This document shows, piece after piece, positions 20,346 through 23,988 of a stretch of 64,000 nt of DNA. The notes under the pieces are model-generated. The model was given only the letters and a program-made list of their open reading frames with translations, was not told the DNA's origin and made no database searches. Origin of the DNA: Planobispora longispora. Lineage in GTDB: Bacteria; Actinomycetota; Actinomycetes; Streptosporangiales; Streptosporangiaceae. Every line of letters starts with the position of its first letter. The first letter of the stretch is position 1. The stretch is taken from positions 62,001 to 126,000 of the forward strand of contig NZ_BOOH01000021.1 in the NCBI RefSeq assembly GCF_016863135.1, written 5' to 3'. A program made the translations under genes and the position numbers.

Positions 20346-21689
20346 ATGACCGACCACAAGCACCTCAAGCGCCGCGTCCGCGAGCGGATGGCCAGGACCG
20401 GCGAGTCCTACACCACCGCGCTGCGCCACGTCCTCGCCGCCCGCGAGGCCGTCCCCGACGCCGTTTCCGGACGGCATCCGGAGAGCGGGCAGAGCACGCA
20501 GAACGGGCACGACGAACACGCGGGGCGCAGCGGGCACCACGACGCGGGGCTCCTGCACCGCCTGCTGCCCTCGCACAGCGAGGCGATGCTCGCCGGACTC
20601 GGCGGCGGCATCGGGTTCATGTACGCCGTCTTCGAGTACCGGGGCCACCACCCCATGGTGACGATCGTCGCCCAGGCCCACCCCGAACCCGTGATCCCCG
20701 TGACGCTCGCCCGCGCCGGGATCCCCCACGAGGTGAGCCGGACCGGCTCCGCCCGCGTCGCCGAGCGCGCCCTGCGCGAGACCCTGGCGGCGGGACGGGC
20801 GGCGGTCTGCCGGGTCAGCCGGTTCGCGCTGCCCTGGCGGCCGGGTTTCCCCTTCCCGGACCCGCTGGAGGTCGCGGTCGTCGGCGCCGACGGCGACGAC
20901 GTCCTCGTGCTCGACGCCAGATCCGAGCCGGAGCGGCTGCCGCTCGCGGAGTTCATGACCGCGTGGTCGGCGCTGAAGAAGTCCCGGCACCACCTGATCT
21001 CGATCGCCGGTCCGGCGGTCACCGGCCCGCCGAGGGCCGGTCGGGCGGTCACCGGTCCGGCGGGTGCTGGCCCGGCGGGCGCCGACCTGGCGGCGGCCGT
21101 GCGGGAGGCGATCGCCGGGACCGTCGCCCGGCTCACCGGTCCGGTGCTGGGCACCTCCTTCGACGTCAACTTCGGCCTGTCGGGCATGAACCGGTTCGCC
21201 GGGCAGCTCGGGGATGCCGAGGGGAGGACCGGCTGGGCGCGGCGGTTCGCCGATCCCGAGGCGTTCTTCATCGCGATGACCCGGCTGCACGAGTGCCTGG
21301 AAGCCGAGTACACCGCGCCCGGCGCGACCCGTCCGCTGTACGCCGCCTTCCTTCAGGAGGCCGGGACACTACTCGGCGGTGCGGGCGGTACGGCGTGCGC
21401 CCGGGCGGCCGATCTCTACCGCGAGGCGGGCGAGCTGTGGTCGCGGATCGCGACGCGGGCCGTCGAGCCCTTCCCCCGATACCGGGAGCTGGCGGCGGAG
21501 AAGGCGGAGCTGCTGCTCACCGAGGGGGCCGCGGCGGCCGGGCGGTTGCGGGAGATCGCCGCGACGGGCGCCTACGAGGGCTCTCCGGGCGAGGACGACC
21601 GGACCGGCCTCCTGGCCGAGCTGGCCGGGCTGGCGGCGCGGGCCGTGCGGATCGAGGAGGAGGCGGTGGCGGCGTTGCGGGCCGTCTGA
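20346..21689 (+). CDS. BtrH N-terminal domain / DUF4872 protein
   Basis: A 447-residue protein. Residues 1-32 (HLKRRVRERMARTGESYTTA) match a short module often fused to unrelated actinomycete enzymes. Then comes a BtrH-like acyltransferase/peptidase-fold domain (SEAMLAGLGGGIGFMYAVFE, and RVSRFALPWRP further on) and a C-terminal DUF4872-like helical domain (LAAAVREAIAGT to the end). BtrH moves an acyl group from a carrier protein to an aminoglycoside during butirosin synthesis; here no carrier protein or sugar cluster is present, so the role is open. A Pro/Gly/Ala repeat near residue 225 (VTGPPRAGRAVTGPAGAGPA) is a likely linker. Confidence 0.75.
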   Translation: MTDHKHLKRRVRERMARTGESYTTALRHVLAAREAVPDAVSGRHPESGQSTQNGHDEHAGRSGHHDAGLLHRLLPSHSEAMLAGLGGGIGFMYAVFEYRGHHPMVTIVAQAHPEPVIPVTLARAGIPHEVSRTGSARVAERALRETLAAGRAAVCRVSRFALPWRPGFPFPDPLEVAVVGADGDDVLVLDARSEPERLPLAEFMTAWSALKKSRHHLISIAGPAVTGPPRAGRAVTGPAGAGPAGADLAAAVREAIAGTVARLTGPVLGTSFDVNFGLSGMNRFAGQLGDAEGRTGWARRFADPEAFFIAMTRLHECLEAEYTAPGATRPLYAAFLQEAGTLLGGAGGTACARAADLYREAGELWSRIATRAVEPFPRYRELAAEKAELLLTEGAAAAGRLREIAATGAYEGSPGEDDRTGLLAELAGLAARAVRIEEEAVAALRAV

Positions 21690-21734
21690 CCCGCCGCCCG
21701 ATCCGTTCATCTGAACCGCCCGCGAATAATCAGA

Positions 21735-21762
21735 TGTGATTCCGGGTGATCGTCGCTACCGT
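21735..21762 (+). promoter_or_regulatory. Tentative promoter of the Y-RNA array
   Basis: TGTGAT at 21735 and TACCGT at 21757, 16 bp apart, would place transcription start at about 21769, which is exactly the first base of the 5' strand of Y RNA 1. Matches to sigma-A consensus are weak, so the main support is the position. Confidence 0.3.
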
Positions 21763-21768
21763 TGAAAA

Positions 21769-21846
21769 CGTCGCAGGTGCGAAGAGACCGGCTACTTCTT
21801 TTCGGCAAAGAAAACCACGCCGGGCTCGATCTCGAACTCTGCGGCG
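21769..21846 (+). ncRNA. Y-RNA-like RNA 1 (short, without tRNA-like module)
   Basis: A 78-nt stem-loop RNA. The ends pair over 8 bp (21769-21776 with 21839-21846, one G-U). An internal loop holds GGTGCG on the 5' side and CGATCTCG on the 3' side. A second stem is CCGGC/GCCGG (21788-21792 with 21819-21823), and the apical hairpin TTCTTT/AAAGAA carries loop TCGGC. The motif GGTGCG-N11-TACTTC (21776-21798) is shared with the three following RNAs and is the presumed Ro60-binding part. It lacks the tRNA-like domain. It is the first of four tandem units upstream of the Ro60 gene. Confidence 0.65.
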
Positions 21847-21890
21847 CATGAAGACGACCACACGAACAGACCAATCGAAAACGAATACTT

Positions 21891-22031
21891 CTTCCCCGGT
21901 GCGCAGGCGACGGTTACTTCTTCTCCTCTCAAGAGCGAGACGCGGGTTCGAATCCCGCCGCCAGCCTCGGCTGGTGTCGACTAGCGGCCCAGGTCACGTG
22001 GATTCCGTCACCGACTCCGATCTCGGGGAAG
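21891..22031 (+). ncRNA. Y-RNA-like RNA 2 with permuted tRNA-like module
   Basis: A 141-nt RNA whose ends pair over 8 bp (CTTCCCCG 21891-21898 with CGGGGAAG 22024-22031). An upper stem GGCGACGG pairs with CCGTCACC with one mismatch. Shared motifs are GGTGCG-N11-TACTTC at 21898-21920 and CGATCTCG at 22018-22025. Enclosed in order are a T-arm (GCGGG, loop TTCGAAT, CCCGC, 21942-21958), a short acceptor-like stem closed by a CTCG tetraloop (CCAGC/GCTGG, 21961-21974) and a D-arm-like segment with GAC/GTC. This T-arm, acceptor, D-arm order is that of a circularly permuted tRNA, as known for YrlA Y RNAs. Confidence 0.75.
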
Positions 22032-22048
22032 CCTCAACTTCATACGCA

Positions 22049-22169
22049 CCTCCCGGTGCGACGGCGGCGGTTACTTCAAGGTTCGATCCCTTACACCTCG
22101 ACCTTCGGGGCGTAGCCCAACGGTGGGCGAAACCGCCGTCACCCCGATCTCGGGAGGGACACCGCTTTT
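22049..22169 (+). ncRNA. Y-RNA-like RNA 3 with permuted tRNA-like module
   Basis: Ends pair over 7 bp (CCTCCCG 22049-22055 with CGGGAGG 22151-22157). The upper stem is a perfect 8-bp GACGGCGG/CCGCCGTC. Shared motifs: GGTGCG-N11-TACTTC at 22055-22077 and CGATCTCG at 22145-22152. The module has a T-arm AAGG-TTCGATC-CCTT (22078-22092), an acceptor-like stem CGACC/GGGCG with one mismatch closed by TTCG (22099-22112), T-A as at tRNA positions 8-9, and a D-arm GCCC-AACGGT-GGGC (22115-22128). A T-run at 22166-22169 may mark the 3' end. Confidence 0.8.
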
Positions 22170-22174
22170 CAGAA

Positions 22175-22316
22175 CGCGCCCGGTGCGCAGGCGAGGGATA
22201 CTTCCACTGTTAATGGGGTGGTTGCCGGTTCGAGTCCGGCCGGGGCCTCCGCGGCCCCGTAGCTCAATCGGCAGAGCACCTGTGTGCCTTCGTCGCCTCG
22301 ATCTCGGGCGCGTTTT
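22175..22316 (+). ncRNA. Y-RNA-like RNA 4 with permuted tRNA-like module
   Basis: The clearest unit. Ends pair perfectly over 8 bp (CGCGCCCG 22175-22182 with CGGGCGCG 22305-22312) and TTTT follows directly, giving a built-in terminator. The upper stem is AGGCGA/TCGCCT. Shared motifs: GGTGCG-N11-TACTTC at 22182-22204 and CGATCTCG at 22299-22306. The module is a near-ideal permuted tRNA: T-arm GCCGG-TTCGAGT-CCGGC (22224-22240), acceptor stem CGGGGCC/GGCCCCG of 7 bp (22241-22247 with 22253-22259) closed by TCCGC, T8-A9, and D-arm GCTC-AATCGGCA-GAGC (22262-22277). The anticodon arm is replaced by the Ro60-type stem. Confidence 0.85.
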
Positions 22317-22398: not shown

Positions 22399-23988
22399 AT
22401 GTCCAAGTTCAACTCGTCCGCAAAGGGGAGCGCCCGCTCCGCCGTCTCCAGCCCCATCACCACCGGGCGCACGCCGTCCGGCCGCACCCACGAGGGCGCC
22501 CCCGGATACGCGCGGGACGCCAAGAGCGAGCTCTTCCTCCTCGCGGTGGCGAACATGGTCGGCGAGGACACTTTCTACGAGAAGGCGGGCGACCGCGACG
22601 AGCGGTTCCGCTCCCTCGTGCACCGGGTCGCGGTCGAGGACGGCGCGTGGATGTCCCGGTTCCTGCCGTGGCTGCGCGGTACGGCGAACATGCGCACCGC
22701 GCCGATCGTCGCCGCCCTGGAGTCAGTCCGGGCACGGCTGGCCGCCGGGGAGCACGGTCTCAACCGGCAGCTGGTCGACGGCGTCCTGCAGCGTGCCGAC
22801 GAGCCGGGCGAGGCCCTCGCCTACTGGATGGCCCGCTACGGCCGCGCGGTGCCCAAGCCGGTCAAGCGCGGCGTCGCCGACGCCGTCCGCCGGCTGTACG
22901 GCGAGCGAAGCCTGCTCAAGTACGACGCCGACACCCGGGGCTTCCGCTTCGGCGACGTGATCGACCTCGTGCACCCCGCTCCGGCCGCGGACAAGCCGTG
23001 GCAGGGTGAGCTGTTCGCGCACGCCCTGGACCGCAGGCACGACCGGGACAAGCCGATCCCCGGCGCGCTGACGACGCTGCGCGCCCGCGCGGAGCTGACG
23101 GCCCTGCCGGTGGAGGAGCGCCGCGCCGTGCTGGCCGACTCCGGCCGGCTGGCCGCCGCGGGCATGACCTGGGAGGCGCTGGCCGGATGGCTCCAGGGGC
23201 CGATGGACGCCCGGGCCTGGGAGGCGGTCATCCCGTCGATGGGCTACATGGCGCTGCTGAGGAACCTGCGGAACTTCGACGCGGCGGGCGTCTCCGACGA
23301 GGTCGCCGCGCGGGTCGCCGCCAAGCTCGCCGACCCGGGCGAGGTCGCCCGCTCGCGGCAGCTGCCGTTCCGGTTCTACTCCGCGTACCGGAACGCGCCG
23401 TCGCAGCGCTGGGGGCACGCGCTGGACAAGGCGCTGGCCCTGGCGACGGGGAACGTGCCGTCGTTCGGCGGCCGGACCCTCGTCCTGGTGGACACCTCGG
23501 CGTCCATGAGCTCGGGCGGGATCTCCGCGCGCAGCACGGTCACGCCGGTCCAGGCCGCCGCGCTGTTCGGCGTGGCGCTCACCGCCCGCGGTGAGCAGGT
23601 CGACCTGTACGGATTCGCCGACGGCGTGTTCCGGCACCGGATCGGCCGCGGCGCGTCCGTGCTGAAGGAGGTGGAGCGGTTCTGCGCGCGGATCGGCGAG
23701 GTCGGGCACGGCACGCAGATCGCCGACTCGGTCCGCCGTACCTACGCCGGGCACGACCGGGTCGTCATCCTGTCCGACATGCAGACCATGGGCGGCCACT
23801 ACGGCGGCGGCGTCACCGGCGCGGCCCCGGCGCACGTCCCCATGTACGGCTTCAACCTGCAGGGATACCGGCACGCGGCGATGCCGACCGGCTCGGGGAA
23901 CCGTCACGAGTTCGGCGGCTTCTCCGACGCGACGTTCCGGATGATCCCGCTGCTGGAGACGGGCACGGGAGCGGGCTGGCCGTTCTGA
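22399..23988 (+). CDS. rsr: Ro60/TROVE domain protein (Rsr)
   Basis: A 529-residue bacterial orthologue of Ro60, a ring-shaped RNA chaperone that binds Y RNAs on its outer surface and single-stranded ends of misfolded RNA in its central hole. The TROVE HEAT-repeat domain covers about residues 40-345 (SELFLLAVANMVGEDTFYE, RTAPIVAALESVRARL, WEAVIPSMGYMALLRNLRNF). The C-terminal von Willebrand A domain has the metal-binding MIDAS motif D365-TSASM. The ATG at 22399 follows AGAAAGGAG by nine bases. It lies just downstream of four Y-RNA-like units. In other bacteria Rsr works with Y RNA and exonucleases in RNA decay and rRNA maturation under stress; no nuclease gene is adjacent here. Confidence 0.95.
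   Translation: MSKFNSSAKGSARSAVSSPITTGRTPSGRTHEGAPGYARDAKSELFLLAVANMVGEDTFYEKAGDRDERFRSLVHRVAVEDGAWMSRFLPWLRGTANMRTAPIVAALESVRARLAAGEHGLNRQLVDGVLQRADEPGEALAYWMARYGRAVPKPVKRGVADAVRRLYGERSLLKYDADTRGFRFGDVIDLVHPAPAADKPWQGELFAHALDRRHDRDKPIPGALTTLRARAELTALPVEERRAVLADSGRLAAAGMTWEALAGWLQGPMDARAWEAVIPSMGYMALLRNLRNFDAAGVSDEVAARVAAKLADPGEVARSRQLPFRFYSAYRNAPSQRWGHALDKALALATGNVPSFGGRTLVLVDTSASMSSGGISARSTVTPVQAAALFGVALTARGEQVDLYGFADGVFRHRIGRGASVLKEVERFCARIGEVGHGTQIADSVRRTYAGHDRVVILSDMQTMGGHYGGGVTGAAPAHVPMYGFNLQGYRHAAMPTGSGNRHEFGGFSDATFRMIPLLETGTGAGWPF

Follow-up and report, generated by a model that had tools for sequence, protein, structure and literature searches.

What a single Ro60 protein does with several different RNAs is the question raised by this locus of Planobispora longispora, where four Y RNA-like units stand in tandem ahead of one Ro60 gene (Table 1). 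The role of bacterial Ro60-Y RNA particles outside Deinococcus has been described as an open question (PMC7790460). In Deinococcus, a Y RNA tethers PNPase to Ro60 (PMC8394870, PMC4726728, PMC7790460). In the Y RNA YrlA, a stem binds Rsr, and DusA and TruB modify the D and T loops of a tRNA-like domain composed of D, T and acceptor arms (PMC8394870). Permuted tRNA domains have been described before in Y RNAs linked to Ro60, phages included (PMC11472068, PMC12282133). We analyzed the whole 64,000-nucleotide stretch of DNA (the window) and compared the array with its relatives in bacteria and phages.

A tandem array ahead of a Ro60 gene

The order proposed in an earlier note, with Y RNA-like genes in front of a Ro60 gene, holds: a TROVE gene lies 3′ of the array. 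Its protein matched PF05731 (E 3.8e-14, best stretch residues 270-330), two TROVE entries of the PDB (E 2e-23) and Deinococcus RSR (2nvo, E 3.9e-4). The longest open frame begins at 22123; the start was set at an ATG, 22399, that is conserved in relatives. The nearest of the 80 Ro60 relatives kept was that of Planobispora rosea (94% protein identity).

Table 1. Features of the array and its Ro60 gene in the window. Bits are scores with covariance model R1, whose training set contained both unit 2 and unit 4.
Feature	Positions	Strand	Description
Y RNA-like unit 1	21768-21847	+	Short, without tRNA-like module; hairpin TTCTTT/AAAGAA atop Ro60-type stem; MFE -32.3, z -3.3; 37.6 bits
Y RNA-like unit 2	21890-22032	+	Ro60-type stem and permuted four-arm tRNA module; 119.5 bits (training unit)
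Unit 2 anticodon arm	21921-21937	+	TTCTC / loop CTCTCAA / GAGCG; 4 of 5 pairs, one U-C mismatch
Unit 2 anticodon	21928-21930	+	Glu CUC
Unit 2 T arm	21942-21958	+	GCGGG TTCGAAT CCCGC
Unit 2 acceptor stem	21959-21976	+	3′ strand first, short closing loop
Unit 2 D arm	21979-21995	+	Glu-like GACTAGCGGCCCAGGTC
Y RNA-like unit 3	22047-22159	+	Minimal permuted tRNA elbow, without anticodon arm; 56.4 bits
Unit 3 T arm	22078-22092	+	
Unit 3 acceptor stem	about 22094-22113	+	
Unit 3 D arm	22115-22128	+	
Y RNA-like unit 4	22174-22313	+	Ro60-type stem and permuted four-arm tRNA module; 136.6 bits (training unit)
Unit 4 anticodon arm	22202-22218	+	TTCCA / loop CTGTTAA / TGGGG; 5 of 5 pairs, two G-U
Unit 4 anticodon	22209-22211	+	Asn GUU
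Unit 4 T arm	22224-22240	+	GCCGG TTCGAGT CCGGC
Unit 4 acceptor stem	22241-22259	+	CGGGGCC / loop TCCGC / GGCCCCG
Unit 4 D arm	22262-22277	+	GCTC AATCGGCA GAGC
Ro60 (TROVE) protein gene	22399-23988	+	529 aa; PF05731 and PDB TROVE matches

The limits of the units were set from a strict pattern together with matches to R1 (see below). The places given for the four units in the earlier note were right, but its end of unit 3, 22169, lies about 10 nt too far. The motif 5′-GGTGCG-N11-TACTTC, said to be common to all four, was found at 21776, 21898, 22055 and 22182, one per unit. These are its only occurrences in the window, with none outside the array even at one mismatch (0.13 expected), and none of 100 shuffles of the window attained four copies. 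The shared motif of the 3′ strand, CGATCTCG, was likewise present, at 21827, 22018, 22145 and 22299; taken singly it is unremarkable (17 in the window against 7.2 expected). Searching the whole genome with the motif returned six places: units 2, 3 and 4, plus three sites that each carry 3 mismatches; unit 1 is too distant from the search pattern to be listed.

Paired ends had been claimed for every unit. The pairs CTTCCCCG/CGGGGAAG, CCTCCCG/CGGGAGG and CGCGCCCG/CGGGCGCG are present, but unit 1 needs an insertion, as its CGCAG/CTGCG pairing is possible only beyond an AACT insertion. For the claimed covariation of this closing stem, four units of one genome are a thin basis, but it was borne out by relatives. 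We aligned 44 long units (alignment A1), of which the window supplied 2 and 35 relative loci the other 42; 39 units had passed a loose hairpin and loop filter, of which L002:3523 and L003:3501 were removed, and seven were added by eye. Across these, the closing stem is 89.4% paired, and two-sided changes with pairing kept occur in 6 of its 9 pairs. The paired ends are kept in related genomes.

The number of units, which the earlier note took to be exceptional, is toward the high end yet ordinary. Among 80 Ro60 loci, the strict pattern, which overlooks units at contig ends or with changed motifs and a few of whose called units overlap, gave no unit in 11 loci, one in 15, two in 28, three in 19, four in 5 and five in 2; thus 7 of the 80 have four or five. 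By hand count of R1 matches, 13 of the 80 have four or more units 5′ of Ro60 (12 with four, one with five).

The flanks and spacers of the array also have features in common with relatives. By eye, we spotted AATAATCAGATGTG ... GCTACCGTT at 21725-21765 (+), 5′ of unit 1, and the same or a like pair is found ahead of unit 1 in loci L001, L002, L004-L007, L061 and L068. These elements are possibly a single promoter region of the array. A promoter and terminator scan gave nothing useful, its sigma-70 part finding no site at 21725-21765. The spacers between units are often alike in relatives, for example in L005, L008, L009 and L014 (by eye), with the pattern CACAACTT[CG]A followed by TATGCACC or GAGCGTGCC; such a spacer is possibly a processing site of a common precursor. 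Also by eye, a terminator-like hairpin was seen right before the Ro60 start codon in L004, L005, L008, L015 and L061. Its 3′ arm contains a likely ribosome binding site, and the hairpin might control Ro60 translation in these relatives. On the other side of the array, the gene at 20346-21689 encodes BtrH_N and DUF4872 domains and has no visible link to it.

Permuted tRNA modules

Each unit was aligned locally to permuted versions of the tRNAs encoded in the same genome, with 200 shuffles of the unit as the null. The scores were 26.6 for unit 2 (null maximum 18.0), 18.2 for unit 3 (16.7) and 35.4 for unit 4 (17.8), and unit 1 gave no permuted-tRNA signal (9.0 against a mean of 9.8 over its 200 shuffles). 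The best matches were tRNA-Ser for unit 2, tRNA-Pro for unit 3 and tRNA-Leu for unit 4; in unit 2 Glu took second place, and in unit 4 Asn took third.

From 5′ to 3′, unit 4 reads closing stem, GGUGCG, second helix, anticodon arm, T arm, acceptor stem, D arm and stem. We read it as a whole tRNA whose chain is open between D arm and anticodon arm. The same reading gives two points missing from the earlier note: an anticodon arm accompanies the permuted tRNA of units 2 and 4, and unit 3 is a permuted tRNA elbow. The T-loop motif TTC[GA]ANT is present in all 44 aligned units, and a G at the D-loop GG position in 43. The minimum free energy folds of units 2 and 4 pick other registers at the anticodon arm, and that of unit 4 lacks separate T and D arms.

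Comparison with known Y RNAs and tRNAs

As in YrlA-type Y RNAs, the array lies beside a Ro60 orthologue and a conserved stem is formed by the paired 5′ and 3′ ends. In such RNAs, permuted T, acceptor and D arms are carried by at least one Y RNA of a species; here they are found in units 2, 3 and 4 and are missing from unit 1. The T loop and D-loop GG provide the predicted sequence context for modification by DusA and TruB. YrlA itself (RF02553; Salmonella structure 6CU1) shares the Ro60-adjacent position, the end-paired stem and the permuted T, acceptor and D arms (PMC8394870, PMC11472068). The layout that we take as canonical for YrlA is opened inside the anticodon stem and has no anticodon loop. 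Units 2 and 4, in contrast, are opened between the D and anticodon arms and add a complete anticodon arm; the Rfam YrlA consensus has no anticodon hairpin.

The covariance-model search suggested in the earlier note was partly successful: with RF02553, unit 4 scored 47.8 bits (E 1.5e-9), but this is below the gathering score of 69. Unit 2 scored at chance level (14.6 bits, E 6) and units 1 and 3 were unlisted. At the gathering score, Rfam had no hit in the window, nor in 10 additional loci, of which nine were bacterial and one was from a phage. Because the gathering score is not reached, we call the units YrlA-like and not members of RF02553.

Two other known systems resemble the array. The Deinococcus RYPER also combines a Ro60 orthologue with an adjacent Y RNA whose stem binds Ro60 and whose module tethers (PMC4726728, PMC8394870); the window's array differs in having four different modules. 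The Salmonella rsr-yrlBA-rtcBA operon likewise joins Ro60 with Y RNAs, in a context of tRNA damage (PMC7790460). In the genome of the window, by contrast, rtcB sits on a different contig. Units 2 and 4 have all four arms of a tRNA, with U33 in most A1 units, and differ from a tRNA in their permuted order, closed acceptor end and embedding in a Y RNA stem. What they appear to add to known Y RNAs is an anticodon arm obeying tRNA loop rules. A literature search by title returned nothing on an anticodon arm in Y RNAs; an earlier mention may exist.

Covariation and frequency of the anticodon arm

With a 38-pair structure, 94.0% of the cells of A1 were paired, and covariation was 0.532, against at most 0.121 when partners were slid. 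RNAalifold, given A1 and no structure, returned the same arms including the 7-nt anticodon loop. The anticodon stem alone was 92.7% paired and had 31 two-sided changes against 0-8 when slid, all confined to two pairs (columns 38-48 and 39-47); pair 36-49 is invariant. For this stem, measures that count pairs or pair types did not exceed shuffles.

Because the A1 units were chosen for a hairpin at that place, A1 is unusable for counting how frequent the arm is. Of the 88 units that combine a T arm with a leader of 18-45 nt, 41 had a canonical anticodon arm, against 3.7 from shuffles. When geometry alone was considered, a 7-nt loop was the best hairpin in 29 of 75 distinct leaders; of these 29 loops, 25 have U33, 25 R37, 25 A38 and 23 C32. 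For unit 4 of the window, the geometry-only test favours a 10-nt loop. In its nearest orthologues (L001, L002), the top pair of the anticodon stem is an A-C mismatch.

The covariance model R1 was built from the 44 A1 units and was used to collect units from further genomes and viral contigs. Since it was trained on arm-bearing units, the sets gathered with it favour the arm; it does not favour particular letters at positions 36 and 37 jointly beyond the content of A1. Two alignments of R1 matches comprise the best 150 of 220 and the best 150 of 212 hits. Of 161 further bacterial long units that have a T arm (the 44 A1 units left out), 107 have the hairpin, as do 149 of 205 once the A1 units are included and 81 of 114 units from viral contigs, the latter being the best 80 of 233 viral-contig relatives.

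In the 80 Ro60 loci, the best 150 of 187 R1 matches were sorted automatically into unit types, for two of which we coined the names type I and type II. Type II units, with an anticodon hairpin and U33, account for 58 of these 150. Another 32 are type I, which we take as the canonical YrlA layout: the anticodon stem pairs the strand after the D arm with the strand before the T arm, and in 29 of the 32 its register is that of a tRNA, with one base following the D arm and five preceding the T arm. The remaining types comprise 25 units of intermediate length, elbows among them, 18 further long ones and 17 short ones. L001:3774 and L002:3812, the orthologues of unit 4, were sorted as type I solely through one mismatched pair.

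Distribution in bacteria and phages

An R1 match at E 1e-10 was obtained in 58 of 394 genomes of the class. The true count is lower, because these include 61-62-bit matches of a kind that proved to be tandem tRNA-Asn genes in the two cases fetched. Matches above 80 bits occur in several families of the class. In a draw of 296 genomes from the phylum, 8 had a match at E 1e-9, all but one inside the class; the sole match outside (G729) had 57 bits. The Acidimicrobiia loci L065 and L070 also have arm-bearing units. That all order-wide R1 matches are Y RNAs was rejected: two repeated matches of 61-62 bits were fetched and both were tandem tRNA-Asn genes. Many order-wide matches near E 1e-4 to 1e-8 are taken as ordinary tRNAs, and the order tally, 240 of 297 genomes with an R1 match, was not used as a count of Y RNAs.

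Among 50,697 phage records, 67 had a Ro60 match at E 1e-5. Because prophage edges or host DNA may account for some of the IMG/VR contigs, we examined 10 records of named phages. All ten had full-length R1 matches near Ro60 (best per record, 49.5-106.9 bits), situated 5′ of Ro60 in nine and downstream of it in Arthrobacter phage Atuin. Nine of the 21 units in these phages passed the hairpin test, across 9 of the 10 records, and 8 of the nine have U33; the other 12 have no hairpin by the same test.

Several phages have long tRNA arrays around Ro60. In Streptomyces phage Kela, an RNA ligase gene (L374:2729-3481; PF09414, E 2.5e-17) separates the Y RNA matches from Ro60. The other loci of a set of 170 (80 bacterial, 80 viral-contig and 10 phage) contained no relative of this ligase at E 1e-4. 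In the same set rtcB was near Ro60 in 3 loci, all among the 80 bacterial ones, which were searched within the fetched flank; the three come from two Acidimicrobiia isolates.

An annotated tRNA overlaps a unit in 4 of the 10 phages: VanLee (Arg-tct), GiJojo (Arg-cct), Alone3 (Ser-gct) and Frankenweenie (Pro-tgg). The overlapping annotations are at L371:3204-3275, L365:3269-3343, L367:3274-3347 and L372:3245-3335. In the window, ARAGORN called a tRNA-Asn gene at 22177-22250, which we rejected because its arms are permuted. Such calls would fit units that are broken or pseudo tRNA genes, or permuted tRNA genes processed into working tRNAs. A tRNA gene has the 5′ acceptor strand first and the 3′ strand last; here this order is reversed and the acceptor end is closed, and the arms, in the order anticodon arm, T, acceptor and D, are enclosed by a conserved end-paired stem next to Ro60. 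Given these features, we consider it highly improbable that the units are tRNA genes of either sort, and the tRNA features ahead of phage Ro60 genes that overlap units are probably misannotated.

A held loop frame with a free anticodon

The loops follow rules known from tRNAs. In further bacterial loops (A1 excluded), U33 is present in 93 of 107 and A38 in 85 of 107; with A1 included the counts are 133 and 127 of 149, and in viral-contig loops U33 and A38 are each found in 68 of 81. Positions 36 and 37 are linked. Among further bacterial loops with U33 (A1 excluded), G37 occurs in 23 of 25 with G36 versus 3 of 68 without it; the corresponding fractions are 23/26 versus 9/107 for bacterial loops with A1 included and 17/19 versus 3/49 for viral-contig loops. 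Since the bacterial and viral sets are kin, with 10 loops common to both, a Fisher p calculated on units is too small. For distinct U33 loops pooled, G37 was found in 22 of 27 with G36 versus 9 of 52 (p 6e-8), and six other position pairs in these distinct pooled loops were unlinked (p 0.25 to 1). Genuine tRNA loops of the units' own genomes have G37 in 14 of 15 with G36 versus 1 of 38 without.

The anticodon, in contrast, is free. There are 34 different anticodons at positions 34-36 among bacterial U33 loops and 25 among viral ones, and the commonest bacterial one is GUU (16 of 133). The triplet changes at 0.35-0.43 steps per sequence, against a 95th percentile of 0.36 and a maximum of 0.44 for body columns, and U33 and A38 at 0.11 and 0.14. 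A first count had put 34-36 above all body columns, on trees that had been built from those columns. When each body block was left out of its own tree the excess vanished, and diversifying selection on the anticodon was rejected. We also rejected the idea that each unit mimics one particular isoacceptor, as body and anticodon disagree: the module body agreed with the isoacceptor of its anticodon in 10 of 111 units, compared with 8.4 when shuffled.

It is possible that anticodon arms were repeatedly copied from tRNA genes and that the loop rules reflect descent with no present function. In support of copying, 68 of 126 loops are identical to a genuine loop of their own genome; by unit, 68 of 111 U33 loops match exactly (shuffled mean 46.3, maximum 58), and by distinct loop, 16 of 51 match, which is not in excess (mean 11.5, maximum 19). 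Of the 8 closest pairs in the body tree that differ at G36, 7 also differ at G37, against 5 of the other 42 pairs. The tandem tRNA-Asn genes of Streptomyces, four bases apart (L265, L266; the genus is our assignment from survey groups), score 61.5-61.8 bits with R1, and a slice from the anticodon arm of the first tRNA to the D arm of the second gives the layout seen here. Under the model given below as well, such genes may be the source of the permuted module, and GUU, an Asn anticodon, is the commonest one in the bacterial set. Against functionless copying, bodies and loops disagree in isoacceptor, many rule-abiding loops (for example TTAGGGA) have no counterpart among the tRNAs of their own genome, and the arm is formed in several families and in phages. 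We consider functionless copying distinctly improbable.

U36A37 is a target for t6A and G36G37 for m1G. The 36-37 rule might therefore reflect enzymes that modify position 37 as the partners, the loops being kept modifiable and the Y RNA recruiting or storing the enzymes. In line with this, YrlA is modified by DusA and TruB (PMC8394870). A single enzyme fails to explain the spread of anticodons, and we regard such partners as quite unlikely.

The modules might instead be purely structural, a PNPase tether or gate as in Deinococcus: a rigid elbow, with the anticodon arm an inherited strut whose sequence is immaterial. PNPase tethering has been demonstrated in Deinococcus (PMC8394870, PMC4726728, PMC7790460), unit 3 and many relatives have no anticodon arm, and the anticodon triplet evolves like the freest sites. 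A strut, however, gives no reason for U33, A38 and the G36-G37 rule to be held in the bacterial and viral sets while positions 34-36 change. We think this explanation unlikely.

A model for the array

The reading that we favour, and think somewhat probable, is that the array encodes four bacterial Y RNAs loading one Ro60, with modules that serve as tRNA surrogates. A tRNA form in shuffled order that keeps an anticodon arm, and does so in phages too, suggests that it stands in for tRNAs. The four units would be transcribed and, probably, processed together. In their common end-paired stem, the conserved GGUGCG/GAUCUC internal loop would be the Ro60 site, and each unit would join this same stem to an effector module of its own. 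The modules differ, and therefore one Ro60 could be loaded with different RNAs, as the earlier note had suggested. Because the tRNA is opened between the D and anticodon arms, units 2 and 4 would display a real anticodon loop; unit 3 would show only the tRNA elbow (T, acceptor and D), and unit 1 none of it.

As tRNA surrogates, the modules could bring tRNA-handling proteins to Ro60 or keep them occupied, acting as tethers or as decoys. Candidate partners are modification enzymes, anticodon nucleases, repair ligases and PNPase. Units 2 and 4 would offer what a nuclease or an enzyme of the anticodon loop reads. The units display different anticodon loops, and phages have the same device.

A narrower version of the tRNA-surrogate reading is that four-arm Y RNAs are decoys for anticodon nucleases, held by Ro60. 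U33, A38 and the 36-37 rule would be the features read by such a nuclease or by a position-37 enzyme. The anticodon would be free to differ from one species or paralogue to the next, which would let host and phage each match the tRNA under attack. The phage units lie amid the phages' own tRNA genes, in Kela also next to an RNA ligase, which would suit this role. Hughes and colleagues reported that the anticodon nuclease induced by DNA damage leaves Salmonella YrlA uncut, and proposed YrlA as a possible competitive inhibitor (PMC7790460). The lack of cutting weighs against the tRNA-surrogate reading. We put the decoy version forward tentatively and consider it somewhat unlikely.

Implications

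At its gathering score, Rfam missed RNAs of this kind both in the window and in the 10 further loci searched, and some annotated tRNA genes right before phage Ro60 genes (4 of 10 records) may be misread Y RNAs. The link of Ro60 to tRNA repair operons has so far been unexplained. If Y RNAs in many actinobacteria and phages show real anticodon loops, the question becomes which protein reads the loop.
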